Assembly: GCA_004292595.1 (NCBI GenBank)
Contig: RDXM01000115.1
Location: forward strand, 1 to 34,844
Length of the DNA: 34,844 nt
Direction of reading: 5' to 3'
Source of the DNA: Candidatus Kapaibacterium sp.
GTDB lineage: Bacteria; Bacteroidota; Ignavibacteria; Kapaibacteriales; UBA4661
Shown here in pieces: positions 6,126 through 30,947 of this stretch (the stretch's first letter is position 1; each line of letters opens with the position of its first letter). The position numbers and the translations under genes are program-made. The notes beneath the pieces were generated by a model. That model was not told where the DNA came from and ran no database searches. It saw only the letters and a program-made list of their open reading frames with translations.

Positions 6126-6203
6126 AGTGGCACAGACATTCTTGTCTGTGTTTGTCGCCTGAAACCCGCACTAACACTCACAGATAAGAATGTCTGTGCC
6201 ACT
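6126..6203 (+). repeat. REPIN-like element, copy 1 (78 bp)
   Basis: Two 25-base arms face each other (6126-6150 and 6179-6203), differing at one position as an inverted repeat. Each arm starts with AGTGG on its outer side and is itself a hairpin with stem CACAGACA/TGTCTGTG and loop TTCT (one stem mismatch in the right arm). The 28-base spacer matches the spacer of copy 6 in reverse complement with about two differences. The element fills the gap between the lipoprotein and LON-domain genes. Confidence 0.85.
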
Positions 6204-6261
6204 ATATTTTTGAAGTTTATTTAGTTAATTTTTGAGCCTCTCTTACCTCTCACCATGATTT

Positions 6262-6900
6262 ATGGAAAAAATAGGTTTATTTCCGCTCAATGTTGTTGTG
6301 TTCCCCGAATCTTCCGTGCCGTTGCATATTTTCGAGCCGCGCTACAAGCAGCTTGTGGGCTTGGCGATTGATGAGCAGAAAGATTTTGGTATCAATCTTG
6401 TTGATTCTTCACGACTCTTCCAAACAGGCTGCACAGTAGCAGTAACTGAGGTTTCGCGCCGCTACGACGACGGGCGTTTGGATGTTATTGTTACGGGAAA
6501 GCAACGCTATACGCTCCGCTCCCTGCGCGAAGGCGAGGAATTGTATTACCTTGGCATTGTGGAGTATTTTATGGATGAAAGCGATGAAGTTATTGACACG
6601 CAGCTTCGGCAAAGGTGCATCAAACAATACAATGAAATTATTGAGCTTGTCTATCCGGGTGCGGCGGAAGAATACGTGCTGGACATAACGTATTCTGGCA
6701 CGGCATCGTTCTTCATCGCGCAAAAAGCAGGCTTGGATGTGCTGCGTAAACAAGAGCTTTTGGAGATACGCTCGGAAAACCAACGCTTGGAAAAATTGAC
6801 TGATTTTATGGAACATCTCCTACCCGAACTCCGCGACAAACGCCGCATTCAAGACGTGATTATGAGCGATGGCTACATTCCCAATAAGCCGAAAAATTAG
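6262..6900 (+). CDS. LON substrate-binding (N-terminal) domain protein
   Basis: A 212-residue cytosolic protein beginning EKIGLFPLNVVVFPESSVPLHIFEPRYKQLV (given here as family text; key elements are the LFPL and HIFEPRY motifs at residues 6-28), which is the hallmark of the LON N-terminal domain (PF02190). The domain covers most of the protein; a helical tail (about 165-212) follows. The ATPase and protease domains of Lon are absent, and the length suits the family of stand-alone LON-domain proteins, which may bind substrates or partners; the role here is unknown. A TATTTTTG sequence at 6205-6212, immediately after REPIN copy 1, fits the TAnnTTTG -7 pattern and could drive this gene, although no good -33 box is seen. 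Confidence 0.87.
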   Translation: MEKIGLFPLNVVVFPESSVPLHIFEPRYKQLVGLAIDEQKDFGINLVDSSRLFQTGCTVAVTEVSRRYDDGRLDVIVTGKQRYTLRSLREGEELYYLGIVEYFMDESDEVIDTQLRQRCIKQYNEIIELVYPGAAEEYVLDITYSGTASFFIAQKAGLDVLRKQELLEIRSENQRLEKLTDFMEHLLPELRDKRRIQDVIMSDGYIPNKPKN

Positions 6901-6910
6901 TAAAGAACAG

Positions 6911-6978
6911 CACAGACAAGAGTGTCTGTGCTACCCTGTAAAGACTGGCTTCAGTAGTGCAGACACTCTTGTCTGCAC
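6911..6978. repeat. Two REPIN half-elements joined in the opposite arrangement
   Basis: A right-type arm (6911-6934, stem CACAGACA/TGTCTGTG, loop AGAG, ending CTAC) is followed by a left-type arm (6955-6978, GTAG then stem TGCAGACA/TGTCTGCA, loop CTCT). In the intact copies the AGTGG-type ends lie outside; here the CTAC and GTAG ends lie inside. This looks like the end of one unit next to the start of another. GGCTTC before the second arm matches the flank of copies 3, 4 and 5. Confidence 0.7.
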
Positions 6979-7092
6979 CCAAAATGGCGTTGTCTGCGCT
7001 TGGAATGCCACTTCTGCAACCTTTTTCCCGCATAAACGTCTCTCAAAAGAGCCACAATTCTTCGCTTGAACGCCTCTTTTACGGTTGCCGTT

Positions 7093-9411
7093 ATGAAATA
7101 TTCCTCAAAATATTCCACGCCTCAGAACAAGGATACTGCTCTCGTTGTTTTGCTCATGCTTGTTCTCGCAATATTTTTCACTCCTTTTCTCCATCTTCAC
7201 GCTGGAGGAGAAGGCGATAAAACTTCTGCACTAAAAGCAGATAGCAACGGCGTGGTGATGTTGCGCAAGGAGTCTCTACGCGGAACAGCAATTCCCGAAA
7301 CAATGAGACTTGGGGTTATGCATCCAGGCGTGTGGCTCTGGAAACAAGCCGACGCACCAGAATTTGCCGCGCAAAACCTTGACGAAAGCTCATGGAAGCT
7401 CGTTCAGCGCGTGAGTGCCGATACTATGCGTCCCGACTGGAAGCGCGTCTTTTGGCTGCGTTCCCACATCCGCATTGATTCTGCCTTGCGCTATACGTCG
7501 GTCGCGCTCTTGCCCTTTGGCGTTGGCGCAGCCGAATACTACTTGAATGGACAACTTGTCGGCGTTATCGGGCGACCCAGCAATTCTGATAGCAATGAAG
7601 TCGTGATTCTCTCTCGCGGCAAGCCATTTGTTTTACAATTTGGCGCAGAACTGGACAATGTTCTTGCCGTGCGATACTCGTTTCATGCGATGCCGCTTGG
7701 CTATAAAGCCGTTCCCTACGTCAAACATGAGCCGATTGTTTCCCTGTATTTCGCGCCAGTGGATGAAGCACTGGCAATGCAGCGCAAAAAAGAAAACTAT
7801 TTTTCGGTGCGATATTTAATTGCAATCGGGATGATGCTCTCGCTCGGATTGCTCCATTTGACGCTCTTCGCACTGAATCGTGCGCAAACATTTCACCTGC
7901 TGTATTCCGTATTCACCTTCCTTGTTGGTCTGCGTTTTTTAACTGTGTACATGGAAAGTATTGTTGAAACGCATCCTGCCATCGCGCTCTTTTTTATGGT
8001 GATTCACAATTTCTACAACAACGCAATACCGCTTGTTTGCTGGCTTTTCTTCTATTCGTTGTTTGGCGAGCGTTGTTCGCGCCGTCGTTTGGTTCTTGCG
8101 TGCGGTGCGACGCTGTTGGTGATTATTGGTCTATTCATAACGGGCGGGAAGGCGCATAGCTACGTGTATGATGTTTCAATGGTTGTTATTTTGCTGCTCG
8201 CCTTCGATGCCGCACGAATCGCCTTCAACGCGCTTCGTCGCAAAGAACCAGGCGCAGGCGTGATGCTCTTTGGGATTGTGGATTTCGGCTTGATGTGGAC
8301 AATTCGCTGGTTTGCTGGTTTTTCGTGGTTTCCCTTCACGATAGGTCAGAGTCCGATGGAAACGTTTGTTTACATCGGCTATATGTCTGTTCCGCTCACG
8401 ATGTCCCTCTACATCGCGCTTGTTATCTCGCGTACGCAGCGTTCTTTGCAGGAGCAGATTGTTCAGGTAAAAGAACTTTCGGCGAATGCGTTGGAGCAGG
8501 AACGACGCGCCAAAGAGGCAGAAATCAGTCGCTCGCTCTTGGAAGCGGACAACGACCGCAAAACCCGTGAACTTGAGGAAGCACGCGCTCTCCAGCTTTC
8601 CATGCTGCCAAGCAAACTGCCCCAGCATCCGCGCTTTGACATTGCCGCTTTTATGCGCACCGCAAGCGAAGTCGGCGGCGATTACTACGATTTCCGCTTG
8701 TCGGAAGATGGAAAAACCTTAATTTCTGCCGTTGGCGATGCCACTGGACACGGCATGAAAGCTGGTTATTTGGTCTCAACAACAAAAAGTTATTTCCAAA
8801 CCTTAGCCCGCGAATCTGGTGGCGCGGAATTGCTGACACGCATTTCGCATGGCATCAAGAACATGAATCTGCGCGGAATGTATATGTGCCTCGCGCTGGT
8901 GCGCTGCGAAACGACCGAGCAAGGAACTATCAGGGCGCACATTGCTATTGCGGGAATGCCACCGATACTGATTTATCGCGCAAAAACACGCTCGGTAGAG
9001 GAAATTTGTCTGAAAGCCTTGCCGCTTGGCAGCATCACTAGTTTTTTGTATCAAGAACTTGTTACTACGCTCGACACCGACGATGTTCTCTTCATTATGA
9101 GCGATGGCTTTCCCGAACTTTTCAACGCGGAGCAGGAAACACTAGATTCTGAGCGCATTGTGGAGTATTTCCAGACGATTGCGCATCACTCTCCCGCAGA
9201 GATTATGACCGCGCTCAAACTTTTTGCCGAACAATGGACAGAAGGCGCACCGCCACTTGATGATATGACAATGGTGGTGATGAAAGTGCTGCCGCTCAAG
9301 CAACCACGCACACTCGAAACAAACAGAACGCCTGAACACCGATTGGAATCAGCACTGAAGCTGCCGCTTGGCAATAAAGAATTTTTGCAGAAATCGTTGC
9401 AAGAAGCATAG
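7093..9411 (+). CDS. Membrane-anchored PP2C/SpoIIE-type serine phosphatase with extracytoplasmic sensor and multi-TM region
   Basis: A 772-residue signalling protein. A signal or first membrane segment (about 14-36) is followed by an extracytoplasmic domain of about 200 residues with a beta-sandwich-like pattern (VFWLRSHIRID, AAEYYLNGQLVGVIG), then about seven membrane segments (241-449), a coiled coil (450-510) and a C-terminal SpoIIE-type PP2C phosphatase (about 510-770). Metal-binding motifs are intact: GGDYYDF near 528, GDATGHG near 548, SDGFPEL near 669 and DDMTMVV near 723. The layout resembles 7TM-DISM receptors coupled to PP2C output, which dephosphorylate anti-sigma-factor antagonists. 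No anti-sigma kinase or STAS protein is nearby, so the partner is unknown. The ATG at 7093 is preferred; a TTG at 7066 would add nine residues. Confidence 0.88.
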   Translation: MKYSSKYSTPQNKDTALVVLLMLVLAIFFTPFLHLHAGGEGDKTSALKADSNGVVMLRKESLRGTAIPETMRLGVMHPGVWLWKQADAPEFAAQNLDESSWKLVQRVSADTMRPDWKRVFWLRSHIRIDSALRYTSVALLPFGVGAAEYYLNGQLVGVIGRPSNSDSNEVVILSRGKPFVLQFGAELDNVLAVRYSFHAMPLGYKAVPYVKHEPIVSLYFAPVDEALAMQRKKENYFSVRYLIAIGMMLSLGLLHLTLFALNRAQTFHLLYSVFTFLVGLRFLTVYMESIVETHPAIALFFMVIHNFYNNAIPLVCWLFFYSLFGERCSRRRLVLACGATLLVIIGLFITGGKAHSYVYDVSMVVILLLAFDAARIAFNALRRKEPGAGVMLFGIVDFGLMWTIRWFAGFSWFPFTIGQSPMETFVYIGYMSVPLTMSLYIALVISRTQRSLQEQIVQVKELSANALEQERRAKEAEISRSLLEADNDRKTRELEEARALQLSMLPSKLPQHPRFDIAAFMRTASEVGGDYYDFRLSEDGKTLISAVGDATGHGMKAGYLVSTTKSYFQTLARESGGAELLTRISHGIKNMNLRGMYMCLALVRCETTEQGTIRAHIAIAGMPPILIYRAKTRSVEEICLKALPLGSITSFLYQELVTTLDTDDVLFIMSDGFPELFNAEQETLDSERIVEYFQTIAHHSPAEIMTALKLFAEQWTEGAPPLDDMTMVVMKVLPLKQPRTLETNRTPEHRLESALKLPLGNKEFLQKSLQEA

Positions 9412-9472
9412 TAGAAAGCCTCGTCTTTTCAATTATTTTCTCACTATTTTCCATATTTTTTTCTTGTGAATT

Positions 9473-9862
9473 ATGGCTCAAACCCGCACCCATGAAGACT
9501 TCCGCACTGGCGGTGTTGTCTCTGTTTGGCTTGGCAGCATCGGCATTGAAGACGACCTCGACGATTACTTGGCAGATGACTTTGCCGATGATTTTGGCTT
9601 TGAAATTATTCCCGAAGACGGACCAGAGTTTGATGTAGCAAACCCCGCACGTCCCGTCGCTGCTCTTTTGGATGGTTTTAGCTGCTATGAGGATTTTATC
9701 GAAGAAGCCGTTGCCGCCGCAAAAGAACAAGGCTGGGAGAAGGCAAATTGCGCTCTTGTTTTCTACAACTTCGCCTACGAAGAAGTTGCCACCAACGACG
9801 ACGCGCCACTCGTCTTCATTGGGACGTTTGCGTTTGCGTTTGATGAAGAAGAGGAAGAGTAA
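9473..9862 (+). CDS. Immunity protein 22 (Imm22)-like acidic protein
   Basis: A 129-residue, strongly acidic protein. The start (GGVVSVWLGSIGIEDDLDDYL), the acidic FADDFGFEI block at about 36-46, a central helix (YEDFIEEAVAAAKEQG) and a final strand (LVFIGTFAF) fit the Imm22/DUF4284 family pattern, whose members are predicted to neutralise polymorphic toxins. It ends in DEEEEE. No toxin gene is adjacent: the phosphatase gene ends 61 bases upstream and pstS lies about 215 bases downstream. It could therefore be an orphan immunity gene, or a family member with another role. The assignment comes from recognised sequence pattern, not from a search. Confidence 0.55.
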   Translation: MAQTRTHEDFRTGGVVSVWLGSIGIEDDLDDYLADDFADDFGFEIIPEDGPEFDVANPARPVAALLDGFSCYEDFIEEAVAAAKEQGWEKANCALVFYNFAYEEVATNDDAPLVFIGTFAFAFDEEEEE

Positions 9863-10076
9863 AAAGGAAGAGTGAAAAGACTGAGAAGCGAGTATTGGTC
9901 TGATGTTGAGGGCTATTATGAAATCGTAATATCGCTAGGCTGAAAAACATCACGAATTGTGCGGCAAATAGCCTAATTTTGTTTCATGTACATTGTGCGC
10001 ATCGGTGCAATGTGCAACACACTATGATGCCACCGCGCTTTAGAGTTTTTCTTTTTCACTTCGCCCGTGCTTGTAT

Positions 10077-10970
10077 ATGAAACAGTTTTACAACCGCATC
10101 AATACTTGCTTCCCTTCATTTGTTTGCTTGCTTTGCGCAATGCTGCTGTGCCTGTGTCCTGCGCTGTTCTCGCAAGCAAAAAAATCCGCGAAAGAAACCC
10201 TTACTATCAAGGGTTCGGACACAATGGTTATTCTCGTCCAACGCTGGACGGAAGTATTTTCCAGCACCATGCGCGATAAAACTAATGTGCAGTTTCAAGT
10301 AACTGGAGGCGGCTCTGGTACAGGAATTTCGTCGCTTATCAATGGCACAACCGATATTTGCTCCTCTTCGCGTCCAATTAAATCCAACGAAGTCCGCCAA
10401 ATCCGCGAAAAATACCGCTCCAAGGGTGTGGAAGTGCGGGTTGCCCGCGATGGTATTGCTATTTATTTGAATGAAAAAAATCCTGTCCAAAACTTGACCA
10501 TCGGGCAAGTGCAGCGTATTTTTACGGGAGAAATTACGAATTGGAAAGAACTTGGCGGCACAGATACACGCATCGTGCTGTACAGCCGTGAAAATAATTC
10601 TGGTACATATGAATTTTTCAAAGAACACGCTCTCAAAAAACAAGACTTCGCACAGCAGACACAGCATATGGTCGGTACGGGCGCACTCGTGAACGCGATT
10701 GCCAAAGACGAGTATGCGATTGGATTTGGAGGCATTGCCTACGCAAGCGGCGTAAAGGCGGCTGCTATTGCATTCGATGAAAAAAGCCCATATGTGCTTC
10801 CCGTTGAAAGCGAGATTTTAAGCGGTGCCTACCCGATTTCGCGTTTGCTGTATTTCTATCTCAAAGAACGTCCCGCTGGCACCATGAAAACGTTTGTTGA
10901 TTGGGTGATTAGCCAAAAAGGACAAGCTATTGTTACGGAAGTTGGATATTTGCCAACGAAGAAATTTTAA
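10077..10970 (+). CDS. pstS: Phosphate-binding protein PstS
   Basis: A 297-residue periplasmic solute-binding protein that captures phosphate for the PstCA membrane channel. Residues 1-31 are a signal peptide with a cysteine-rich hydrophobic core ending near LFSQA. Ligand-binding segments are typical: IKGSDTM near 44, TGGGSGTGI near 75, SSRPIK near 97 and SRENNSGTYEFF near 176. The ATG at 10077 is chosen; a TTG at 10071 is also in frame. pstC starts only 13 bases after its stop, so the two are an operon. Upstream (9990-10013) an imperfect hairpin ACATTG/CAATGT is visible, but no clear Pho-type operator. Confidence 0.93.
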   Translation: MKQFYNRINTCFPSFVCLLCAMLLCLCPALFSQAKKSAKETLTIKGSDTMVILVQRWTEVFSSTMRDKTNVQFQVTGGGSGTGISSLINGTTDICSSSRPIKSNEVRQIREKYRSKGVEVRVARDGIAIYLNEKNPVQNLTIGQVQRIFTGEITNWKELGGTDTRIVLYSRENNSGTYEFFKEHALKKQDFAQQTQHMVGTGALVNAIAKDEYAIGFGGIAYASGVKAAAIAFDEKSPYVLPVESEILSGAYPISRLLYFYLKERPAGTMKTFVDWVISQKGQAIVTEVGYLPTKKF

Positions 10971-10983
10971 TGCTTGAAAAACT

Positions 10984-12189
10984 ATGGAATCGGAACAGAC
11001 ACAAGGTATCACGCCGCCGTCAGATATTTCTTCAAAAAAATCTTCTTCGCAAGAACATCCTTTTGTGCGGCGCAAAAGTAATCTCGGTGAGCGCATTATT
11101 GAACGCGGAATCGCGCTTGTTGGCGGGATTGCGGTGGTGTTGATATTCCTCATTTTGCTGTTTGTGCTACGCGAATCCATTCCGCTTTTCTTTCAACCTG
11201 AAAGCAAAGCAATAGGAGCAAAGAGCGCACAAACAGATAAAAATGCCCAAAAAGCTAGTAATGATGAGACTTTGAAGCCAGACATTTACAATCCCGATAT
11301 TATCTTGAATAGTGCCGAGAGCGAAACCATATTCGTACCAGAAGTCTATAACCCTGATGTTTCTTTGCCAACGCAGGTTTCTTCCGTATCTGCAAGCGCA
11401 CCTGTGCCAGAAGAAGAACAGGATGAAAGTATTAGCTTGGCAAATGTGTTGGGAAATGCGTGGCAGCCAGTATCGACGCGCCCGAAGTTTGGCATTTTGC
11501 CGCTGATTATCGGAACAGCAAAAACAACGATTGTCGCAGTTTTGATTGGTGCACCGCTTGGCATCTTGGCTGCATTGTATGCTGCCTTTTTTGTTCCACG
11601 CCGTTTGAAAGAATTTATCAAGCCAATGGTGGAAATGCTCGCAGGACTGCCTTCGGTAGTGATTGGCTTTTTTTGCCTTATGACGATTGGTTCATTTCTC
11701 CAAACACTCTTCGGACTAGACTTCCGCCTCAATGCTGTTGTTGGTGGAATTGGCTTGTCGATTGCCGTCATTCCGATTGTCTTCACCATCACCGAAGATG
11801 CGCTTTCTGCTGTGCCGAAAAGCCTTTTGGAAGCCTCGCTCGCAATGGGCGCGACGACGTGGGAAAGCGCGTATAAAGTCATGCTTCCCGCCGCGTTTCC
11901 AGGCGTGTTTGCGGCAGTTTTGCTTGGCATCGGACGTGCTTTTGGCGAAACCATGATTGCGCTCATGGCAACGGGCAATGCCGCAATGCTTTCTGCTTCC
12001 TTCGCCGACCCCGTGCGCACCTTCTCCGCAACGATTGGCGCGGAAATGGGCGAAGTGATATGGGGTTCGCCGCATTATAGTATGCTTTTTTTTCTCGGCG
12101 TTTTGCTCTTCCTTTTCTCCTTCACGCTGAATGCGATTACAGAGCTTTTCATCAAAGAACGTCTGGCGAAGAAGCTGCAAGGCGGCTAA
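10984..12189 (+). CDS. pstC: Phosphate ABC transporter permease PstC with large periplasmic insert
   Basis: A 401-residue inner-membrane permease forming the phosphate channel with PstA. A charged cytosolic leader (1-35) precedes TM1 (about 42-63). Residues about 72-148 form a hydrophilic insert not seen in ordinary PstC of about 300 residues; it contains the near-repeat PDIYNPDIIL (99-108) and PEVYNPDVSL (119-128), 20 residues apart. From GILPLIIGTAKTT (170) onward the family pattern is normal, including the ABC permease EAA loop (EDALSAVPKSLLEASLAMGA) and GIGRAFGETMI. It is co-transcribed with pstS and probably with pstA, which starts 90 bases downstream after a repetitive spacer. Confidence 0.93.
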   Translation: MESEQTQGITPPSDISSKKSSSQEHPFVRRKSNLGERIIERGIALVGGIAVVLIFLILLFVLRESIPLFFQPESKAIGAKSAQTDKNAQKASNDETLKPDIYNPDIILNSAESETIFVPEVYNPDVSLPTQVSSVSASAPVPEEEQDESISLANVLGNAWQPVSTRPKFGILPLIIGTAKTTIVAVLIGAPLGILAALYAAFFVPRRLKEFIKPMVEMLAGLPSVVIGFFCLMTIGSFLQTLFGLDFRLNAVVGGIGLSIAVIPIVFTITEDALSAVPKSLLEASLAMGATTWESAYKVMLPAAFPGVFAAVLLGIGRAFGETMIALMATGNAAMLSASFADPVRTFSATIGAEMGEVIWGSPHYSMLFFLGVLLFLFSFTLNAITELFIKERLAKKLQGG

Positions 12190-12195
12190 AAGAGC

Positions 12196-12218
12196 AAGGA
12201 TGAAATCTGAGGGATGAA
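12196..12218 (+). repeat. Short gene-3'-end repeat, copy a
   Basis: The sequence contains the 17-mer AAGGATGAAATCTGAGG followed by GATGAA, six bases after the pstC stop codon. The same 17-mer occurs in reverse at 13369-13385, at the 3' end of frr, and with one difference at 22367-22383, just after hisH. Confidence 0.6.
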
Positions 12219-12236
12219 GATGATGTTGATTTCAAA

Positions 12237-12296
12237 CACCAAGCAACCAATGACCAAGCAACAACGCACCAAGTAACGAATGACCAATAACCAATC
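12237..12296 (+). repeat. Degenerate tandem ACCAA(G/T)(C/A)AAC-type repeat before and across the pstA start
   Basis: Imperfect units built on ACCAAGCAACCA and AATGACCAA run from about 12237 into the first pstA codons. An upstream ATGACCAAGCAACAACG (12250) starts an eight-codon frame ending in TAA, closely resembling the beginning of pstA (ATGACCAATAACCAATCC). The real start therefore sits inside a duplicated low-complexity tract. Confidence 0.5.
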
Positions 12297-13194
12297 CACA
12301 AAACGCCTTATCGGGATATTTGCTGTCGGGGCAACGCTTCTGGCAGTCGTGGCGATTGCAGGACTTGTTTTCAGCACGATGGGAACATTCCTCGTAAAAG
12401 GCGCACCGCACCTCTCGTGGTCGCTTCTGAGTGAAGCACCCCGTAACAACAACACTGAAGGCGGCATTTTTCCTGCCATTTATGGCACGACGCTCTTGGT
12501 GCTGATAATGACGCTCTTAGGTGTTCCGATTGGTACAATTACAGCAATCTATCTTTCCGAATACACTCGCCCAAATGCGGTCTTTCCTCGCATCATTCGC
12601 TTTGCCGTTAATACGCTTGCGGGCGTTCCGTCGATTGTTTTTGGGTTGTTTGGCTTAGGTTTTTTCGTGCAATTCGTTGGACGCGGCATGGATACTGCTT
12701 TGGGCAATGACACTGCACTATTCGGGCAACCAGCTCTCATCTGGGCTGCCGCCACGCTTGCCGCATTAACACTGCCTGTGGTGATTGTTTCGGTGGAAGA
12801 AGCCTTGCGCACCGTTCCCCGCGAAATGCGCGAAGGCAGCCTTGCGCTTGGTGCGACGCGCTGGCAAACAATTTGGAAAATTGTGCTACCCAATTCAACA
12901 ACAGGAATTCTGACAGGAGCAATTCTCGCCATTGGGCGCGGTGCAGGCGAGGTTGCACCGATATTGTTTACGGGTGCTGTGTATTCATTACCGCAGCTTC
13001 CCGATGGCATTACGAGCCAGTTTATGCACCTTGGCTATCATTTGTTTGTGCTTTCAACGCAGTCCCCCGACGTTGATAAAACCCTGCCCCTGCAATACGC
13101 CACGACGCTTGTTTTGCTCGGACTTACCTTTACACTCAATTTCAGTGCTACCTTCATTCGCTCGCGTCTGCGCCAACGCCAGATGGGGCGGTAA
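12280..13194 (+). CDS. pstA: Phosphate ABC transporter permease PstA
   Basis: A 304-residue inner-membrane permease, the usual size for PstA. Six membrane segments are evident. The region GGIFPAIYGTTLLVLIMTL near 61 and the EAA loop EEALRTVPREMREGSLALGA near 170, followed by AIGRGAGEVAPILFTGA, are characteristic. It pairs with PstC to move phosphate delivered by PstS. The ATG at 12280 (MTNNQSTKRLIG) lies in a repetitive tract and has no Shine-Dalgarno sequence. The expected next gene, pstB (the ATPase), is not here: the - strand gene frr lies downstream instead. Confidence 0.93.
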   Translation: MTNNQSTKRLIGIFAVGATLLAVVAIAGLVFSTMGTFLVKGAPHLSWSLLSEAPRNNNTEGGIFPAIYGTTLLVLIMTLLGVPIGTITAIYLSEYTRPNAVFPRIIRFAVNTLAGVPSIVFGLFGLGFFVQFVGRGMDTALGNDTALFGQPALIWAAATLAALTLPVVIVSVEEALRTVPREMREGSLALGATRWQTIWKIVLPNSTTGILTGAILAIGRGAGEVAPILFTGAVYSLPQLPDGITSQFMHLGYHLFVLSTQSPDVDKTLPLQYATTLVLLGLTFTLNFSATFIRSRLRQRQMGR

Positions 13195-13241
13195 ATGCAC
13201 CATATCGCACTCAAGTTTGCTGGTCTGATTCTCACGATATG

Positions 13242-13271
13242 AAATGTAACAACACAAAATGTAACAACACA
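13242..13271 (+). repeat. 15-bp tandem repeat (two copies)
   Basis: AAATGTAACAACACA occurs twice in direct succession (13242-13256 and 13257-13271), between pstA and the following terminator hairpin. No function is evident. Confidence 0.6.
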
Positions 13272-13308: not shown

Positions 13309-13368
13309 TTGCGAAGTCGTGATGAAACCAAGTGTCAGAGCCAAGATGTGCTGCTTTCAGCCCGCAAA

Positions 13369-13949: not shown

Positions 13950-13996
13950 AGCTTTACTATTTGAAAAATCGTTCAACAAGAGAAGTTTAAATCAAA

Positions 13997-14116
13997 GTGT
14001 TGAGTGCTAAGTGTTGAGTGCTAAGTGTTGAGCGTACAAACAATTATCGCCATATACTTGGAAATCAAGCATTGTGCAAATAACTCAACACTCAACACTT
14101 ACAACTCAATACTGTA
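13997..14116. repeat. 14-bp tandem repeat and its inverted counterpart between frr and typA
   Basis: GTGTTGAGTGCTAA occurs at 13997-14010 and 14011-14024, with a partial third unit to about 14033. At 14083-14116 the same theme appears in reverse (CTCAACACTCAACACTTA), so the two tracts can pair across about 50 bases. Low-complexity tracts of this kind are common between genes; no function is evident. Confidence 0.6.
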
Positions 14117-14122
14117 TTCCAC

Positions 14123-15970
14123 TTACGCTGGTTCCGCCGTTGCCAAACGCTTTCTCATACGATTGCGCTCGGTTGCATCCAAAATACGCTTGCGAATGCG
14201 GATGCTCTGTGGCGTTACTTCCAAAAGTTCATCGTCAGCAATAAACTCAATAAATTGCTCAAGGCTCATTTGACGCGGGGTGTCGAGTTTGACAACACCG
14301 TCCGAGCCGCTTGCACGCATATTCGTCAGGTGCTTGGTGCGGCAGGGATTCACAACAAGGTCATCCTCGCGCGAGTTTTCGCCCACAACCATACCTTCGT
14401 ACAAATCTACGCCTGGCGGAACGAAGAGAACGCCGCGCTCCTGCACCATTTCAAGCGCGTAAGCGGTGGATGGACCAGATTCCATCGAAACAAGCGAACC
14501 GCGTGTGCGCGTAGCAAATTCGCCTTTGTATGCGTCGTAGCCGTGAAAGGTGTGGTGGATAATACCTTCGCCGCGTGTTGCGGTCAAAAACTCCGTGCGG
14601 AAGCCGATGAGACCACGCGAGGGCACAATAAATTCTGCCCGCACCGAATCGCCTGTTGGGGTCATGTTCAGCATTTCTGCTTTGCGGCGACCCAAAAGTT
14701 CAATCACCGTGCCGACTTGCGCTTGCGAAACGTCCACAATCACGTGTTCCATTGGCTCTTGAATTTTGCCGTTTTCATCGCGCTTGTACAATACTTCTGG
14801 CTTGGAAACCGCAAATTCATAGCCTTCACGGCGCATGGTTTCAATCAAAATCGCCAGTTGCAATTCGCCGCGACCCGATACTTTGAAGTTATCCGCAGAA
14901 TCCGTATCGGCAACGCGCAAAGCAACATTGGTGCGGGTTTCGCGGTACAAGCGCTCGCGCAATTTCGGCGTGGTAACAAATTTTCCTTCGCGTCCAGCAA
15001 AGGGCGAGGTGTTCACGCAGAAGTTCATTGCAAGCGTTGGCTCGTCAATGTTCACGTACGGTAATTGCTCAGGATTGGACGAATCGGCAATCGTATCGCC
15101 AATAAACACGTTCTCAAAGCCTGAAAGCGCGATAATATCACCTGCTTCGGCAGATTCCACTTCTTTACGCAAGTTGCCTTCATAGACGTACAGTTTCGTA
15201 ATGCGGCTATTTTCCTTGCTTCCGTCAGGGTGCAAGAGCGCGACGCTATCGCCCACTTTCACACGTCCACGATGCACACGCCCAACGGCAATGCGCCCTA
15301 CATAGTCGTTCCAATCCAACGCAGCGATAATCATTTGGAAGGGCTGTTCTGGGTCGGCAACTGGTCCAGGGATAGTCGCAATCACGGTTTCAAAGAGTGC
15401 GTCGAGATTGGTTGCTTCTCCATCCAAGGTGCGTTTTGCCAAACCTTGCTTTGCAATCGCGTAAATAACGGGGAAGTTTAATTGGTCGTAATCAGCTTCA
15501 AGGTTGATGAAAAGCTGCATAACTTCGTCCAAAACCTCGTCAGCACGGGCATCGGAGCGGTCGATTTTGTTAATCACCACAATCGGGATAAGATTCATGC
15601 CGAGAGCTTTTTTGAGCACGAAGCGCGTTTGCGGGAGCGGACCTTCTGCCGCGTCCACGAGCAGCAATACGCCATCCACCATCGACAAAATACGTTCTAC
15701 TTCGCCACCAAAGTCGGAGTGTCCTGGCGTATCCACGATGTTAATTTTCGTTCCATTCCACGTAACGGCGGCGTTTTTCGCCATAATCGTAATACCTTTT
15801 TCGCGCTCAAGGTCGTTGGAATCCATGACGCGGGTGACGACGGCTTGGTTTTCGCGGAAAATACCCGCTTGGCGCAAAAGGTGGTCCACAAGCGTTGTTT
15901 TACCATGGTCAACGTGTGCGATGATGGCAATATTCCGAATGCTTGTATTTCGTTTAATGTTGGTATCCAT
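14123..15970 (-). CDS. typA: GTP-binding protein TypA/BipA
   Basis: A 615-residue translational GTPase that binds the ribosome and assists 50S assembly and stress adaptation. G1 is [10 protein letters not shown] at residues 18-27, the switch region contains EREKGITI, G3 is DTPGH and G4 is NKID. An EF-G-like domain II, domains III and V ([21 protein letters not shown], split in my reading as [11 protein letters not shown] and MRREGYE), and the BipA-specific C-terminal region with [15 protein letters not shown] follow. Length and motifs are complete. The start ATG has no Shine-Dalgarno sequence. frr lies downstream on the same strand; both act in translation, but the repetitive gap leaves co-transcription uncertain. 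Confidence 0.96.
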
Positions 15971-21590: not shown

Positions 21591-21670
21591 AGTGGCACAG
21601 GCATTCTTGCCTGTGAGAATTGGTGCAGGGTCTAGGCATAAGAAACACAGACAAGAATGTCTGTGCCACT
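21591..21670 (-). repeat. REPIN-like element, copy 3 (80 bp, reverse orientation)
   Basis: Arms at 21591-21615 and 21646-21670 begin and end with AGTGG/CCACT. The left arm has stem CACAGGCA/TGCCTGTG while the right arm has CACAGACA/TGTCTGTG, so a base pair changed on both sides of one small hairpin. Outside flanks TCTTCAAT (left) and GAAGCC (right) match those of copy 5 in reverse, showing that the repeated unit extends beyond the arms. Confidence 0.85.
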
Positions 21671-22362: not shown

Positions 22363-22366
22363 AGAA

Positions 22367-24618: not shown

Positions 24619-24663
24619 TTGCGATAAACTCTGGCTTTCTGTTGTGAAGCCATGTCAGATTTC

Positions 24664-24724
24664 ATGCCTACACCGCCCCCTAGCATCTTTCTCTTGAATT
24701 GATGCGGCGTTGTAGGCATTTTTT
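24664..24724 (+). terminator. Rho-independent terminator between the acyl-CoA dehydrogenase and DUF5683 genes
   Basis: ATGCCTACA (24664-24672) pairs with TGTAGGCAT (24711-24719), and GCATC/GATGC pairing (24683-24687 with 24701-24705) continues the stem. A run of six T residues follows. The flanking genes converge, so it may serve both. Confidence 0.75.
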
Positions 24725-24732
24725 ATTGTCTT

Positions 24733-25545
24733 TCACCAATGCACAACCACGCCGAGCCGCAACTGCGCAATATCCAGATACGGCAGAACACGAGGCGGCG
24801 ACGTGTGCTGCATTGCAAGGCGTTGTTCGGTGAGAATATGTTGTGGCAAATACGACGGCAGAAGCGAGGTTTTACCGTCATTGGCGGGGATTTCATCGCT
24901 TACATCGAAGTCGTACAAATGCGCTCCGACGAAGGCATCTACCGCCGCTAACGCCCATACTGCCGCCGATGCAATGATAAAGACATCGCGGGTGTCGCGG
25001 TAGAATTCTCGTTCGCGCAAATTCTGAAAAAGTCCAAACTTCGTATAAAGAGAATTTGCTATTTGAAAACCTCCCTCCCGTCCAATCGCCTCAACTACAC
25101 AATATACTGCTCCGCCAAAGAAAACCGGTGCTTTCCAATAACTCTCGACGTAGAGCTGCCCCCAGCCTGGAATAATTGATTTCCAGAGTGCTTCTATGGG
25201 CGATTTCGTCATTGTGGCGGTGGTGGAATTGCGTTGTTTGCTACTGTCTTGCGCAGTGCCATTTTGTGAGTCAAGCGAGGAAATAGGGACGAATTTTCGC
25301 GGCGTTTGCGGAAGCGTATCTTGTTGTATTTCTTGTGAAATTCCTTGCAAGCATTCTTGCTCACACTCTTGATACAGAGACACGTTTGGGCATTGTTCTT
25401 GTGCAGAACACGGAAAATGAGTGAGCAGAAACATTCCGCCGCAGAAACAGAGCAGGAGGCAATATTTCTTGCAAAGCGAAGGTGCGGCAATATGCTGAAG
25501 AGAGCGTAAAATCACGGTTTTGAGGGAATTCAAAGTGCGTTGCAT
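24733..25545 (-). CDS. DUF5683-containing envelope protein
   Basis: About 270 residues. A hydrophobic N-terminal segment (CLLLCFCGGMFLLTHFPCSAQ, abbreviated here to its core LLLCFCGGMFLLTHF) looks like a signal sequence. A hydrophilic linker leads to the DUF5683 region: PIEALWKSIIPGWGQLYV, YWKAPVFFGGAVYC, a conserved REFYRDTRD near the middle, and AAVDAFVGAHLYDFDV. DUF5683 is common in Bacteroidota and relatives, where it is a membrane protein of unknown function. The ATG at 25545 (MQRTLNSLK) is preferred; 25572 would add nine residues. It is divergent from rimM, 92 bases away. Confidence 0.75.
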   Translation of the reverse strand: MQRTLNSLKTVILRSLQHIAAPSLCKKYCLLLCFCGGMFLLTHFPCSAQEQCPNVSLYQECEQECLQGISQEIQQDTLPQTPRKFVPISSLDSQNGTAQDSSKQRNSTTATMTKSPIEALWKSIIPGWGQLYVESYWKAPVFFGGAVYCVVEAIGREGGFQIANSLYTKFGLFQNLREREFYRDTRDVFIIASAAVWALAAVDAFVGAHLYDFDVSDEIPANDGKTSLLPSYLPQHILTEQRLAMQHTSPPRVLPYLDIAQLRLGVVVHW

Positions 25546-25637
25546 ACAGTGGAAAAGGAAAACGATGCGCAAACATTATCAAGAAATTGCGTAGATTGAC
25601 CAAATTTATCACACAAAAACGACACACACAAGGCAAT

Positions 25638-26198
25638 ATGCGCTTTGCAGGACGAATCTTCCGCACACACGGCACACAAGGTCATCTCATCTGTGGCGAA
25701 ACAGTGCCGCATTTTCGCGGCTTCGAGCAAGGAATGACGCTGAATCTGGGCTTTTCTGCGTCCTTCACGAAACCCTTTATCGTTGCCGAAAGCAAGAAAG
25801 CGGGCGTGGGGCAATGGATGGTGCGCTTCAAAGGAATTGATTCGCCAGAAGCCGCATCAAAGCTACGCGAACAGGGCATTTTCCTAACGGATGAAGTTAT
25901 TCGCGCTGCAATCGACGTGCAATTTAACGAACAATTTTTCGATGATGAAATCGTTGGCTGCCGCGTGGTGAACCGTGAAACAGGCGAGGAATTGGGTAAA
26001 ATCAAGGAAATCTGGGAAACGCCTGCAAACGAGATTTGGGTGGTGGATTACAAAGGTAAAGAGCTTCCCATTCCTGTTATTGACGAAATTATCAAGCACG
26101 TCAATATTGCGCGGAAGACTGTTTCTATCTATGTTATGCCGGGTTTGTTGGAAATTGTTGATGATGCACATTCCAATGACGAGCGTGATGATGAATAA
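25638..26198 (+). CDS. rimM: Ribosome maturation factor RimM
   Basis: A 186-residue cytosolic protein, within the usual family length. The N-terminal RimM barrel begins AGRIFRTHGTQGHLIC, a clear variant of the GxixxxHGxxGEvkv motif. The middle has the RFKGIDSPEAASKLREQGIFL region. The C-terminal PRC-barrel follows (VGCRVVNRETGEELGKIKEI, split in my reading at VNRETGEELG), closing with VMPGLLEIVD. It helps 16S rRNA processing and 30S head assembly through ribosomal protein S19. The ATG at 25638 fits the family start. Its usual partners rpsP, trmD and rplS are not adjacent. Confidence 0.87.
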   Translation: MRFAGRIFRTHGTQGHLICGETVPHFRGFEQGMTLNLGFSASFTKPFIVAESKKAGVGQWMVRFKGIDSPEAASKLREQGIFLTDEVIRAAIDVQFNEQFFDDEIVGCRVVNRETGEELGKIKEIWETPANEIWVVDYKGKELPIPVIDEIIKHVNIARKTVSIYVMPGLLEIVDDAHSNDERDDE

Positions 26199-26227
26199 AA
26201 TTGCATTGTTGTCTCAATATACTGTTG

Positions 26228-26273
26228 CTTCAGATGTAGTCCACCTCAAAGGTGGACTACTACATTACTGAAG
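26228..26273 (+). repeat. Perfect 11-bp GTAG-type hairpin downstream of rimM
   Basis: GTAGTCCACCT (26236-26246) and AGGTGGACTAC (26250-26260) pair perfectly around the loop CAA. The outer bases CTTCAG (26228-26233) and CTGAAG (26268-26273) can pair as well. It may end the rimM transcript, though no T-run follows. The GTAG/CTAC ends recall REP sequences. Confidence 0.6.
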
Positions 26274-26322
26274 TTACGCAGCCGTCTGCAATAAGAGGCG
26301 GTGTGGGACGTTGAAGGGAGTT

Positions 26323-26613
26323 ATGCTATCAAAACGACTCCAAACACTCGTCCTAGCCACCTGTCTCTCGGTGGTCTGTTTTCGTAAAGTCTGATTTACG
26401 GCGACCGCCGTTGCAGCACAAACCAGTGGTCGCATCTCACACGATGCACTACAACGTTTGTTCTCGAATGAGCAAATCCAATGGAGCCGCCAACTAGAGT
26501 TATTCCGAGTAAAGCATACTATCTCAACACTGTACCACATACGTTCTGTGTTATTTAATCAACCCATTCCTTTGAAAACAGCTTGGAATCTTGCCCCCAA
26601 GCTCTTTGCGTAA
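26323..26613 (+). pseudogene. Decayed transposase-like N-terminal fragment
   Basis: A frame starting MLSKRLQTLVLATCL is broken by an in-frame TGA (26392-26394). It continues TATAVAAQTSGRISHDALQRLFS and stops at TAA (26611-26613). The combination of a tal-gisHD-LxRLL pattern recalls the N-terminus of DDE transposases related to IS4/IS701 families (key residues SHDALQRL). At about 95 codons it lacks the catalytic DDE core. It is a relic; I cannot name the insertion sequence, and no terminal repeats are visible. Confidence 0.4.
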
Positions 26614-26634
26614 CGTCAGTTATTATAACTCCAT

Positions 26635-26668
26635 TTTCACTCAAGGTCGGGTTTCACTCAAGGTCGGG
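26635..26668. repeat. 17-bp tandem duplication
   Basis: TTTCACTCAAGGTCGGG is present twice in direct succession (26635-26651 and 26652-26668). It sits at the stop codon of the - strand fragment next to it, so it may be a slippage event in decaying sequence. Confidence 0.6.
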
Positions 26669-26827
26669 TGCATATGTGAACAGTACCCAGCCTTCTGTGT
26701 TCTCAATACTCTTTTGTACGCCTGCAAGCAAGATAGAATCAACTCTTGAAGCCTCTTTTTTGACTTTTGCACTTTGAGCAGTATTTCCCTGCAAGCGAGA
26801 TATAATCTGGCGTTTGAGTGTTTTTCT
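26654..26827 (-). pseudogene. Possible gene fragment of unknown origin
   Basis: A 57-codon open frame on the - strand, without a start codon and bounded upstream by TAA, reads as ordinary protein (SRVDSILLAGVQKSIENTEG, then WVLFTYAPDLE). I do not recognise the family. Its position between a transposase-like relic and fumC suggests debris of a lost gene, but it is short and could be chance. The rest of the gap up to fumC (26828-27040) holds nothing I can support. Confidence 0.25.
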
Positions 26828-27040
26828 TTATACGGTCGGTGAATGTGTGTTGTCGTCCTGCATTTGCGCCTTTTCCAGAAATATTTTCGGGAATTATTTT
26901 TTTGTCGCACAAATCTCCCGTATTTTAGTGGGCTGTATTTGTGCGTCGTGCTTGCGCTGTGCGCATTGCCTGAGTAGCGCATGAATACACACTCTTTTGC
27001 AATTCACTCTTTCCTTTCATTTTGTTTTCCCTCTGAAATT

Positions 27041-28435
27041 ATGGCTTCTACCCGCATTGAAAAAGACACGATGGGCGATATCGCCGTCCCCAACGACAAA
27101 TACTATGGTGCGCAAACGGCGCGTTCTCTCATTCATTTCGCTATCGGCACCGAGCGGATGCCCGACGAACTCATCCGCGCAATGGGTATTTTGAAAAAAT
27201 CAGCAGCGATTGTCAATGCGGAATTAGGTTTGCTTCCGAAGGAAAAGCTCGATTTAATCGTGCGTGCAGCCGATGAAGTGATTGAAGGAAAGCTCGGCGA
27301 CCACTTCCCGCTTTCGGTCTGGCAAACTGGCTCTGGCACACAAACAAACATGAACGTCAATGAGGTGATTTCTAATCGCGCAATCGAAATGGCGGGCGGC
27401 GAACTTGGCAGCAAAAAGCCTATCCACCCCAACGACGACGTAAACAAAGCGCAAAGCTCCAACGACACCTATCCTACTGCGATGCACATTGCGGCAGCAG
27501 AACAGATTGTGAAATTGCTCATTCCCGCCGTGTCGCATTTGCGTGATACTTTGTCTCGCAAGGCTGATGAATTCAAGGACATCATCAAAACAGGTCGTAC
27601 ACACCTCATGGATGCTACGCCGCTGACATTGGGGCAAGAATTTTCAGGTTACGTGCAAATGCTCGACCAAGCTCTCGTGCGCATCAATGCTGTGCTTCCG
27701 GGCTTGTACGAACTTGCACTCGGCGGTACTGCCGTTGGTACGGGCTTGAATACGCATCCTGAATTTGCGGAGAAATCAGCAAAACAAATTGCGCATGAAA
27801 CAAATCTGCCCTTCGTAACTGCGCCAAATAAATTTGAAGCTCTTTCGGGACACGACGCGCTTGTCTTTGCGCACGGGGCATTGAAAACACTGGCGGCGAG
27901 CCTTATGAAAATTGCCAACGATGTTCGCTGGATGGCTTCTGGACCGCGCTGCGGCTTGGGTGAGCTTTCCATTCCCGAAAACGAACCCGGCTCCTCAATT
28001 ATGCCCGGCAAAGTAAATCCCACGCAAAGCGAAGCAATGACGATGGTTGCAGCGCAGGTGATGGGCAATGATGTGGCAATCAACATCGGCGGCGCGTCAG
28101 GGAATTTTGAATTGAACGTCTTCAAGCCGCTTATTATCTATAACTTCTTGCAAAGTGTGCGCCTTCTCGCCGATACTTGCGTGATGTTTGAAGAGCATTG
28201 CGCAATCGGTATTGAGCCAAATAAAGAGAAAATTGATTACTACATGAAAAATTCGCTCATGCTCGTAACCGCCTTGAACCCGCATATTGGCTACGACAAC
28301 GCGGCAAAAATTGCGAAAAATGCGCACAAAAAAGGCACAACGTTGCGTGAATCTGCACTGGAAATGGGCTTCATTACCGCAGAAAAATTCGACGAAGCAA
28401 TTAAGCCGTTAGATATGACCAAGCCTGGAATGTAA
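27041..28435 (+). CDS. fumC: Class II fumarate hydratase
   Basis: A 464-residue cytosolic enzyme that interconverts fumarate and malate in the TCA cycle. Starting at the ATG at 27041 ([12 protein letters not shown]), its active residues fall at H188 (TGRTHLMDA) and S318 ([11 protein letters not shown]), the same numbers as in E. coli FumC, which supports both identity and start; an ATG at 26981 would add 20 implausible residues. [12 protein letters not shown] near 98 is the substrate-site block. FumC is iron-independent and oxygen-stable by family. It stands alone; the next gene is pyrB. Confidence 0.95.
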
Positions 28436-28537
28436 GCAATAGAGCGTTGTGTGAGGCTCTCGCTTCTCAAGCGAGGGTCTCACTTTTTAGCGCAAATTCT
28501 TCATGCGAAACAAAATCTATAAAAAGAATGAGGCTTC

Positions 28538-28625
28538 AGTGGCACAGACATTCTTGTCTGTGTTCTTCGCCTGAATCCCGCTCCAATCCTCACAGGTAAT
28601 CACAGGCAAGAATGCCTGTGCCACT
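28538..28625 (+). repeat. REPIN-like element, copy 4 (88 bp)
   Basis: Arms at 28538-28562 and 28601-28625. Here the left arm keeps CACAGACA/TGTCTGTG and the right arm has CACAGGCA/TGCCTGTG, the mirror situation of copy 3. It is 10 bases longer than most copies because TCACAGGTAA and TCACAGGCAA stand in tandem before the right arm. GGCTTC precedes it, as in copy 5. Confidence 0.85.
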
Positions 28626-28680
28626 GTCGTTGAAGAATCTTCATCGTTCTCCTTTCACCACTCCCACCAACCACCGCACC

Positions 28681-29646
28681 ATGCTGTTTCCGCACAAACA
28701 TCTCATCAGCGCACGCGATTTATCCGCCGCCGACGTTGAGATGATTTTCGACCGTTCCCGCGAATACCTTGATTTCTTGCGCCTTTCCGACCGCTCGCAC
28801 GACCGCAAACGCAATGACCTTCAAGGCGTGTCGGTGGTGTTGGCATTTTTTGAAAATTCTACGCGTACCCGTGTTTCTTTCGAGCTAGCTGCCAAGCGTC
28901 TTGGCGCGGAGGTGACGGCGTTTCAGGCGGCTGCGAGCAGTGTCGCAAAAGGCGAAACGCTCTTGGATACGATTCTGAATATTGAAACAATGAAAGTGGA
29001 TATTTTGGTGATGCGGCATCATCATTCGGGAGCGCATGAATTCTTGTCCACGCAGCAAAATCGCGTTGCAAGCAGCATTGTGAATGCTGGCGACGGACAG
29101 CACGAACACCCAACGCAAGGGCTGTTGGACGCTTTCACCTTACATGAGAAATTTGGTTCGCTGCGTGGAATGCGCTATTGTTTGGTAGGCGATATTCTCC
29201 ACAGCCGCGTTGCTCGCTCGAATATCCCTGTTTTTCAGGCGTTGGGCGCAGAAGTGGCGGTATGCGGTCCGGGAACGCTTATGCCGAATCTGGATGCCTT
29301 TGGCGTGAAAATTTTTAGCCACATCGACGAAGCGGTACAATGGGCGGACGCACTGAACGTCTTACGGATTCAGCGCGAGCGAATGCAAGAAGGCTTGATT
29401 CCGACGCTGCGAGAATTTGTGCGGCAATTCGGCGTGAAGCGGCATCACATTGAACAAAAACCGAGCTTGGCAATTTTGCATCCCGGTCCAATCAATCGCG
29501 GAATTGAGCTGGAAGCGGAAGTTGCCGATGCGGCGCAATCGCTGATTTTATCGCAGGTTGAACGCGGCGTGGTTGTCCGCATGGCTGTTCTTTCCTTGCT
29601 TGCGGAGCATCGCAAAGCAAGCATTGGTGCGGGTTCGAAAGAGTAG
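28681..29646 (+). CDS. pyrB: Aspartate carbamoyltransferase catalytic subunit
   Basis: A 321-residue enzyme that joins carbamoyl phosphate and aspartate, the committed step of pyrimidine biosynthesis. Carbamoyl-phosphate motif FENSTRTR is near 56-63. HHHSGAHEFL near 114, GDGQHEHPTQGLLD near 142 and HPGPINRG near 271 are typical active-site segments. The start at 28681 (MLFPHKHLISARDLS) gives a normal N-terminus and length. An in-frame ATG at 28612 lies inside REPIN copy 4 and should not be used. No pyrI or other pyr gene is adjacent. Confidence 0.94.
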   Translation: MLFPHKHLISARDLSAADVEMIFDRSREYLDFLRLSDRSHDRKRNDLQGVSVVLAFFENSTRTRVSFELAAKRLGAEVTAFQAAASSVAKGETLLDTILNIETMKVDILVMRHHHSGAHEFLSTQQNRVASSIVNAGDGQHEHPTQGLLDAFTLHEKFGSLRGMRYCLVGDILHSRVARSNIPVFQALGAEVAVCGPGTLMPNLDAFGVKIFSHIDEAVQWADALNVLRIQRERMQEGLIPTLREFVRQFGVKRHHIEQKPSLAILHPGPINRGIELEAEVADAAQSLILSQVERGVVVRMAVLSLLAEHRKASIGAGSKE

Positions 29647-29708
29647 TTTTAAGAACACTATTTTATACACAGCGAAAAACTCTTCATCGCTAGGAAATAT
29701 CAGGCTTC

Positions 29709-29786
29709 AGTGGCACAGACATTCATGTCTGTGTTTGTTGCCTGAGTCTTGCACTAATACTCACAGACAAGAATGTCTGTGCCACT
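29709..29786 (+). repeat. REPIN-like element, copy 5 (78 bp)
   Basis: Arms at 29709-29733 and 29762-29786, each with stem CACAGACA/TGTCTGTG; the left loop is TTCA instead of TTCT. The 28-base spacer aligns with that of copy 1. Outer flanks GGCTTC and ATTGAAGA are shared with copy 3. It lies between pyrB and the ferredoxin-NADP reductase gene. Confidence 0.85.
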
Positions 29787-29836
29787 ATTGAAGAGATTTT
29801 TTGTTGTGCATTGAGTCATTTTTCATAAAAAAATCC

Positions 29837-30841
29837 ATGATTACCACCGATATTCTCGTTGTTGGAGCCGGTCCATGCGGCTTGTTTTCTGCCTTTGAAG
29901 CAGGTTTGCTGAAATTGCATTGCCACTTTATTGATTACTTGCCCATTCCGGGCGGGCAATGCGCTGAATTATACCCAAAGAAGCCTATTTACGACATTCC
30001 TGGCTTTCCGTCGGTCTTGGCGGGCGACTTGATTCACAACTTGATGAAACAAATCGAACCCTTCAAACCTGGCTTCACGCTTGGCGAACGTGCCGAAACA
30101 ATTACCAAACTGGACGATGGCTCGTTCAAAACAACGACTTCGCGTGGCACGGAAATTCAATCGAAATTTATTTTTATTGCTGGCGGACTTGGTTGCTTCG
30201 CACCGCGCAAACCCGCGATTGAAAACCTCACTACTTTCGAGCAAAAAGGTGTGGATTACATCGTGCGCGACCCTGAAGAATTTCGCGGAAAGCGTGTTGT
30301 CATCGCAGGTGGCGGCGATTCTGCGCTGGACTGGACGCTCGTCCTTGCGGAACTTGTTTCTGAATTGACACTCGTTCACCGCAGCAAGCAATTCCGCGCC
30401 GCGCCAGACTCTGTGCAGAAAATGGAAGCTCTCGCTGCATCGGGAAAAATCAACTTTATTGCTGACGCAAACGTGACGGGAGTGGCGGGAAATGGCGTGT
30501 TGCAGGAAGTAGTGATTACCCATGAATCGGGAGAAGTCGAGCGCAAGGCGGCGGATTGGTTTGTACCGCTTTTCGGCTTGGCTCCACAGCTTGGTCCGAT
30601 TGCCGAGTGGGGCTTGGCATTGGAGAAAAATGCGATTACGGTCAGCCCCGTTGATTACAGCACGTCGGTTGAGGGGATTTATGCGATTGGCGATATTGCC
30701 GAGTACCCGCATAAACTCAAGCTCATTCTGACGGGCTTCCACGAAGCAGCTACCGCTTGCCACGCGGTGCATCAGAAGCTGAATCCGAATAAAAAACACG
30801 TTATCAAGTACACGACTGTCTCAGGAATTACGCCGTTTTAA
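29837..30841 (+). CDS. Ferredoxin-NADP+ reductase, thioredoxin-reductase-like type
   Basis: A 334-residue flavoprotein that moves electrons between ferredoxin and NADP(H). The FAD motif VVGAGPCGLFSAFEAG is at residues 8-23 and the NAD(P)H motif VVIAGGGDSALDW near 155. YAIGDIAEYPHKLKL near 288 is the second FAD signature. The CxxC pair of thioredoxin reductase is absent at the expected position, which separates it from TrxB and fits the green-sulfur/Bacillus-type FNR. The ATG at 29837 (MITTDILVVGAG) suits the family; 29801 would add 12 residues. It is flanked by REPIN copies 5 and 6. Confidence 0.9.
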   Translation: MITTDILVVGAGPCGLFSAFEAGLLKLHCHFIDYLPIPGGQCAELYPKKPIYDIPGFPSVLAGDLIHNLMKQIEPFKPGFTLGERAETITKLDDGSFKTTTSRGTEIQSKFIFIAGGLGCFAPRKPAIENLTTFEQKGVDYIVRDPEEFRGKRVVIAGGGDSALDWTLVLAELVSELTLVHRSKQFRAAPDSVQKMEALAASGKINFIADANVTGVAGNGVLQEVVITHESGEVERKAADWFVPLFGLAPQLGPIAEWGLALEKNAITVSPVDYSTSVEGIYAIGDIAEYPHKLKLILTGFHEAATACHAVHQKLNPNKKHVIKYTTVSGITPF

Positions 30842-30869
30842 GTCAGCAGCTTTGGTAAATTTCTTCTCT

Positions 30870-30947
30870 AGTGGCACAGACATTCTTGTCTGTGAGTGTT
30901 AGTGCGGGTTTTCAGCGACAAACACAGACAAGAATGTCTGTGCCACT
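30870..30947 (-). repeat. REPIN-like element, copy 6 (78 bp, reverse orientation)
   Basis: Arms at 30870-30894 and 30923-30947 are perfect inverted repeats, each a hairpin with stem CACAGACA/TGTCTGTG. The spacer is the reverse complement of the copy 1 spacer apart from about two differences, so the unit is present in both orientations. It lies between the reductase gene and hrcA. Confidence 0.85.

Follow-up and report, generated by a model that had tools for sequence, protein, structure and literature searches.

The palindromic repeats scattered through the 34,844-nucleotide stretch of Candidatus Kapaibacterium sp. DNA analysed here (henceforth termed the window) are a large family of REPINs, i.e., inverted pairs of short palindromic, GT[AG]G-footed REPs that occur in high copy number and mostly between genes. 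With a probability that we put at about 0.8, these non-autonomous pairs were spread by a RAYT transposase that is encoded elsewhere in the genome, embedded in frame in the helicase gene recG.

Five near-identical units of 78 to 88 bp occur in the window, each built from two inverted 25-nt arms that agree at 23–25 of 25 positions after reversal. Judged by the spacer, three units lie in the plus sense, at 6126–6203 (78 bp, arms 24/25 alike, 28-nt spacer), 28538–28625 (88 bp, arms 23/25 alike, a longer gap of 38 nt) and 29709–29786 (78 bp, arms 24/25 alike, 28-nt spacer), and two in the minus sense, at 21591–21670 (80 bp, arms 23/25 alike) and 30870–30947 (78 bp, arms 25/25 alike), with spacers of 30 and 28 nt, respectively, in the reverse sense. 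Unit sizes (78, 80, 88, 78 and 78 bp from left to right), paired arms and the presence of both orientations are as given in the original prediction, which had been made from the letters of the window alone; its conserved spacer of 28–30 bases describes four of the five units (28, 30, 28 and 28 nt) but not the one at 28538. Two additional fragments had also been proposed. The first is a single REP with a GTAG foot at 6911–6934 (minus strand, two mismatches to the 24-base core), adjoined by a degenerate REP half recognized by eye at 6954–6978 (plus strand). The second, placed at 32319, is not established: a weak match by eye at 32320–32344 (plus strand, GTAG foot) is a possible degenerate REP fragment, yet an ungapped comparison with the core gives 17 differences over 24 positions. 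At up to three mismatches, the core matched the window 11 times, namely once in every arm of the five units and once in the 6911 fragment, and did not match any of 100 dinucleotide-preserving shuffles. As single strands, all five units fold far better than shuffled sequences (z −6.3 to −10.5). Each lies between long plus-strand ORFs, the 28538 unit extending 14 nt into the mechanically called beginning of the ORF that follows. The window holds a further inverted repeat at 13996–14113 (31-nt arms, 84% complementary, 56 nt between them) that is unlike the REPINs in sequence.

In the 4.6-Mb draft assembly (G000; 199 contigs, 96.5% complete), the window corresponds to contig C85. Among 80 loci retrieved with a protein of the window, the eight nearest are from Ignavibacteria or Candidatus Kapaibacterium MAGs (66–99% identity). 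Across this genome the arm core is present in 583 copies at up to three mismatches (294 and 289 by strand; reversed control 0), hundreds rather than a handful. Arrangement was analysed in a 422-kb sample that includes the window, with arms accepted at up to five mismatches. The sample contains 65 arms, five of them single; 29 of the 30 close pairs point head-out, with a spacer of 28 nt in 17 of the 29 and of 24–49 nt in the others. The spacer sequence is itself conserved (47–100% per position across 17 copies), the two orientations are represented by 16 and 12 of 28 pairs, and the foot is GTGG in 62 of 65 arms and GTAG in three. Using ORFs called by a simple script, 34 of 36 sampled elements are not inside an ORF, two of these in partial overlap, in a sample with a coding share of 85.5% (binomial about 1e-26). 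The same script applied to G003, another species, placed 39 of 50 elements outside ORFs and 11 inside, seven of the latter in frames of 95–150 aa. The REPIN plan anticipated for the units is therefore present in REP foot, copy number, inverted pairing and intergenic placement.

Intergenic hairpins might also be kept for an RNA role, at transcript ends or in mRNA stability, their number then owing nothing to a RAYT. The location of the units and the fact that 28 of 34 intergenic elements are flanked by co-directional genes would suit such a role, and passages of PMC3733652 state that REPs are thought to act as RNA too. We regard this explanation as quite improbable: none of the three units in 28400–31100 is among the six terminator-like matches of that region, an Rfam search of the window gave no match, and an RNA role leaves unexplained the head-out pairing, the conserved spacer and the restriction of the family, among the genomes searched, to few genomes of one genus.

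This restriction is apparent from the distribution of the arms, which were found in 7 of 61 genomes: 610 in G003, 583 in G000, 258 in G007, 200 in G006, 99 in G004 and two each in G002 and G001. None occurred in G005, G008 and G009, and an order-wide spread was rejected by the count of 0 arms in 51 genomes of other families. Among the genomes searched, the arm family is thus seen in one genus, plus two stray copies in a neighbour genus. Between G000 and G003, individual sites can be compared. The site of the 29709–29786 REPIN is also occupied in G003 (JAAFIV010000001.1, locus L011, 9869–9946); there the arms are almost unchanged and the spacer differs strongly, as might result from conservation or correction confined to the arms. 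The gap in L011 corresponding to 30870–30947 contains no unit. At this and other sites the two species differ by presence and absence with insertion edges that are not clean, and no clean empty REPIN site was found in the samples of the two genomes, which overlap over only about 33 kb. One clean insertion site, at G000:C175 15724, was considered as an empty REPIN site and rejected, as it belongs to another repeat family: positions 15724–15835 (L188), compared with G003:C1 at about 179281, are a clean insertion present in one species only, about 110 nt long and from a palindromic family of the type CCCTCACCCC...CCCTCTCCC.

A search of G000 with the Y1_Tnp profile (PF01797, E 0.01) returned two places. 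The first, where contig C19 ends, is a fragment of IS200 type with two TAGs inside the match. An arm lies about 0.8 kb away, and the units could in principle be a MITE of such an ordinary insertion sequence, mobilized by a TnpA of this kind. With 583 arms in 4.6 Mb, however, an arm is expected every 8 kb on average, so one near the fragment is not surprising; no other arm lies in the 1.8 kb of sequence analysed there, and the RAYT described below is flanked by arms on both sides in three species. We therefore find the MITE explanation hardly credible.

The second place lies inside recG and scores as REP_Tyr_transpos (E 6e-21, residues 451–581). The frame spans 1060 codons (938 aa from the start used), with RecG sequence on both sides of the RAYT. 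The 938-aa protein passes three recG equivalog cut-offs (NF008168, NF008165 and TIGR00643), matching NF008168 in two stretches with 808 bits against a cut-off of 718. Thermotoga maritima RecG (1gm5) aligns up to its residue 514 and again from 519, the few residues between being replaced by a stop-free segment of about 140 residues that sits after the DEQHRFG motif and before SATPIPR, in the loop between helicase motifs II and III. No stop codon separates the RAYT and RecG parts, and, barring later cleavage, any product with the whole RAYT therefore also includes the RecG C-terminal part. Within the insert, no in-frame ATG lies ahead of the conserved NLPHW start, and the only in-frame GTG and TTG codons in that segment fall inside the REPs. 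The protein matches 10 Pfam families, none of them a splicing domain. This RAYT-bearing frame is the only high-score RecG-like match in G000; the other two RecG-like matches share one 1177-codon frame with 36–37% identity that, judged by size, is probably Mfd.

Immediately beside the RAYT are copies of the repeat arm, one on one side (locus L010, 1391–1415) and two on the other (1894–1918 and 1951–1975), in opposite senses. All three are 25/25 identical to the arm of the window, and they are translated in frame, giving the peptides VAQTFLSVN and QTRMSVPL. The original prediction had linked the REPINs to a RAYT of the IS200/IS605 Y1 type and proposed a search for a Y1 gene flanked by the same arms. 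Such a gene exists in the genome as a RAYT-type domain, inside recG and outside the window, and with the family neither scarce nor devoid of a Y1 transposase the link is supported.

Two other species of the genus, G004 and G007, carry a RAYT insert in the same loop and in the same direction, and in all three species arms occur on both sides of it. In G004 the frame runs over 997 codons on one 90-kb contig; in G007, recG is split over two contigs that both end at a repeated linker. The RecG frame is thus open through the insert on one contig each in two species, and over two contigs in the third. REPs are repeats that break assemblies, and the contig ends in G007 illustrate why the arrangement could be suspected of being an assembly error. 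The insert recurs in separate genomes with loop, direction and open frame unchanged; together with the uninterrupted G004 contig and an analogous in-frame RAYT in the one-contig genome G012, this makes such an error very improbable.

The three domains retain the residues associated with RAYT function. All have the HuH motif DHVH and a tyrosine motif of the form Y-x2-NP (YIQANP, YIIENP or YIEENP), together with WQ-x4-DR-x2-R (WQDESFDRIIR, WQDESYDRIIR or WQEESFDRIIR), which corresponds to the pattern W, Q, [ED], [HR], R given for foot recognition in RAYTs in passages of PMC6006769. Against the 80-bit NCBIfam RAYT cut-off, G007 scores over (95.7) and G004 (79.3) and G000 (78.3 or 74.9) slightly under. 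In a tree of 15 rows the three form one group with support of 87/99, just under the firm-support mark of the program. For the same pairs, dN is 0.42–0.48 in the RAYT versus 0.05–0.12 in RecG, and the parts of PMC2817692 available to us report that RAYTs evolve faster than neighbouring genes. The RAYT dS is infinite for two of the three pairs and near 2 for the third, G000–G004, the one pair with finite dS, for which dN/dS is about 0.22. None of the three domains contains a stop codon. Judged from these codon comparisons, the embedded RAYT looks constrained.

The insert is absent from the recG loop of G003, G006, G002, G008, G001, G005 and G009 (the last with a partial recG). In their RecG C-terminal parts, G004 matches G006 at 99% identity and G000 matches G003 at 97%, yet only one member of each pair has the RAYT. 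Two or more losses of the RAYT, or repeated gains at a single site, are therefore implied. The RecG loop of G003 (L217) holds, in frame, an inverted palindrome pair of another repeat family, the same kind as the insertion in C175 described above.

Do the embedded RAYT and the arms belong together? The arms around the RAYT are of the GTGG form in G000 and G004 (one G004 copy with three mismatches) and of the GTAG form in G007. In genome samples, the commonest exact arm is likewise the GTGG form in G000 (43 of 65) and the GTAG form in G007 (14 of 30), i.e., in both species the RAYT is flanked by the commonest exact arm of its own genome. Foot type and RAYT hence change together between G000 and G007; the sample of G004 (GTGG form, 3 of 10) is too thin to count, and in G003, which lacks the RAYT, the commonest exact arm is the GTGG form (26 of 75).

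Nevertheless, the REPINs could be real and the RecG-embedded RAYT a dying passenger, the family owing its spread to a free RAYT that is ancestral or has so far escaped notice. Repeats occur in G003 (610 arms) and G006 (200 arms) with no such RAYT in their assemblies, the G000 draft is 96.5% complete and might lack another RAYT, and contig C63 of G007 bears a further RAYT-like gene, accompanied on just one side by an exact GTGG arm that lies about 80 nt behind it. Against this stand the lack of stops in three lineages whose synonymous distances are saturated or nearly so, the dN/dS of about 0.22 for the one computable pair, the complete retention of catalytic and foot-reading residues, and the match between flanking and commonest arms in G000 and G007. 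We therefore consider this alternative unlikely, though it is the most serious one.

REPs in G003, which lacks the RAYT, show no sign of simple decay. Exact GTRG arms make up 290 of 583 in G000, 310 of 610 in G003, 31 of 99 in G004, 43 of 200 in G006 and 138 of 258 in G007, where the numerators are exact forms and the denominators were counted against the GTGG form, which may undercount GTAG-rich genomes such as G007. Across these five genomes the presence of the RAYT does not predict the share of exact arms, and as such arms are as common in G003 as in G000, no arm decay follows from RAYT absence in G003. Other RAYT-like genes were rejected as the cognate enzyme. For those of G003 (two), G008 and G002, no arm was found at up to six mismatches in the surrounding 2.0–3.4 kb; four of the five candidates, these and the C63 gene of G007, were included in the tree and fell on a separate branch (100/100), G003:C1 being left out. 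A RAYT on G007:C96 was likewise rejected, being flanked by different hairpins and no such arm. This free-standing RAYT-like gene at about 34,510–35,050 (L152, 1471–2010; 179 aa, HYH motif) has a different hairpin repeat of the GCGGAATTTATTCCGC type on both sides and is perhaps part of another REP/RAYT pair in the genus.

RecG works at stalled and reversed forks, and a RAYT fused to it would be brought there, where it may act on single-stranded DNA. In the mechanism that we favor, the RAYT, a HuH/Y1 single-strand transposase, would be made as a domain of RecG, remain active and move the REPINs of the window. It would read the GT[AG]G foot and the hairpin of each arm and nick REPINs while they are single-stranded, since TnpA_REP is able to cleave and rejoin REP sequences according to passages of PMC6006769. 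A simpler reading is that of a selfish shelter, in which a genome could be freed of the RAYT only by its exact removal or by a broken recG; as G003 and G006 demonstrate, recG can be intact without the RAYT. For the persistence of RAYTs, low-copy genes that bring no obvious gain, such embedding in recG offers a concrete mechanism.

RAYT matches in long frames also occur in other genes. In a wider survey, the listed matches were retained when they lay in open frames of at least 400 aa, a choice made on frame length, not function; shorter frames and host-breaking inserts lie outside the tally. This applied to 4 of 18 matches in 10 genomes of the family, 7 of 73 in 123 genomes of the order, 5 of 150 among the matches listed for 395 genomes of the phylum, and 10 of 106 when these 395 genomes were searched with a profile of this RAYT clade. 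Together, the four surveys gave at least 15 distinct places among the matches listed, 14 of them without a stop and all of these in DNA-processing genes: recG (G000, G004, G007), DUF1156-type DNA methylases (G012, G288, G389), an N6/N4 methylase (G353), Eco57I-type methylases (G461, G451, G454, G312) and hsdR (G335, G198, G300). PF06634 is matched in G012 and G389; the G288 methylase, with its start cut, was assigned from its resemblance to that of G389 and a weak match to NF042963. Host sequence lies on both sides in one frame in 11 of the 14 stop-free cases, on both sides over two contigs in G007, and on one side only in G461 and G300, at contig ends. The fifteenth place, at about 10,659–10,799 of G006:C239 (L165), is a weak RAYT match (E 0.003); the methylase-like frame that holds it is interrupted by one TAG, and it is a possible decaying case. 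By eye, repeated REP-like in-frame peptides appear beside the hsdR and methylase RAYTs (L261–L264, L210–L213, L258–L260).

Several of the stop-free cases share descent, and by host and position we judge that they represent about seven separate origins. Tentatively, and at somewhat less than even odds, we suggest that DNA-handling enzymes (RecG, HsdR and DNA methylases) repeatedly acquire RAYTs as in-frame inserts resembling inteins, making bifunctional proteins in which selection on the host protects the transposase and the host enzyme brings the RAYT to its single-stranded DNA substrate. If true, the transposase driving REPIN families would be encoded not as a separate gene but as one domain of an enzyme of DNA repair or restriction.

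In the open-licence literature searched, no paper turned up that describes an entire RAYT within recG or within a restriction gene. The recG RAYTs share the DHVH, WQ...DR..R and YIxxNP type motifs, and REPs with a 5' GT[AG]G, with TnpA_REP subclasses 2.5/2.7 as described in sections of PMC6006769, near which they can be placed by motif only. The same sections of this 2018 classification report REPs inside tnpA_REP without loss of frame, and state that unexpectedly long proteins were dropped as fusions or annotation errors, so that embedded RAYTs would have fallen outside that study. Passages of a 2013 report (PMC3733652) describe REPs, and RPEs of Rickettsia, as palindromes in frame in uvrA, recB, polA and similar replication and repair genes. 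Those are short repeats, whereas here a whole transposase is inserted; a RAYT inside such a gene is not stated in the passages on in-frame REPs. The occurrence of in-frame REPs in DNA repair genes, known but unexplained, is here extended to a whole transposase.

The system as a whole resembles the REPIN/BIME families with RAYTs of Pseudomonas, E. coli and Stenotrophomonas, which likewise consist of GT[AG]G-footed inverted hairpins, are found in many copies and largely between genes, and have a RAYT bordered by inverted REPs. In those systems, however, the RAYT is a gene of its own, whereas here it lies inside recG. Inteins and embedded homing endonucleases are mobile enzymes carried in frame in conserved DNA-processing proteins. 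The RAYT in RecG likewise is a mobile enzyme in frame in such a protein, but one without a splicing domain, and in contrast to an intein it would sit in a surface loop and stay in the protein.
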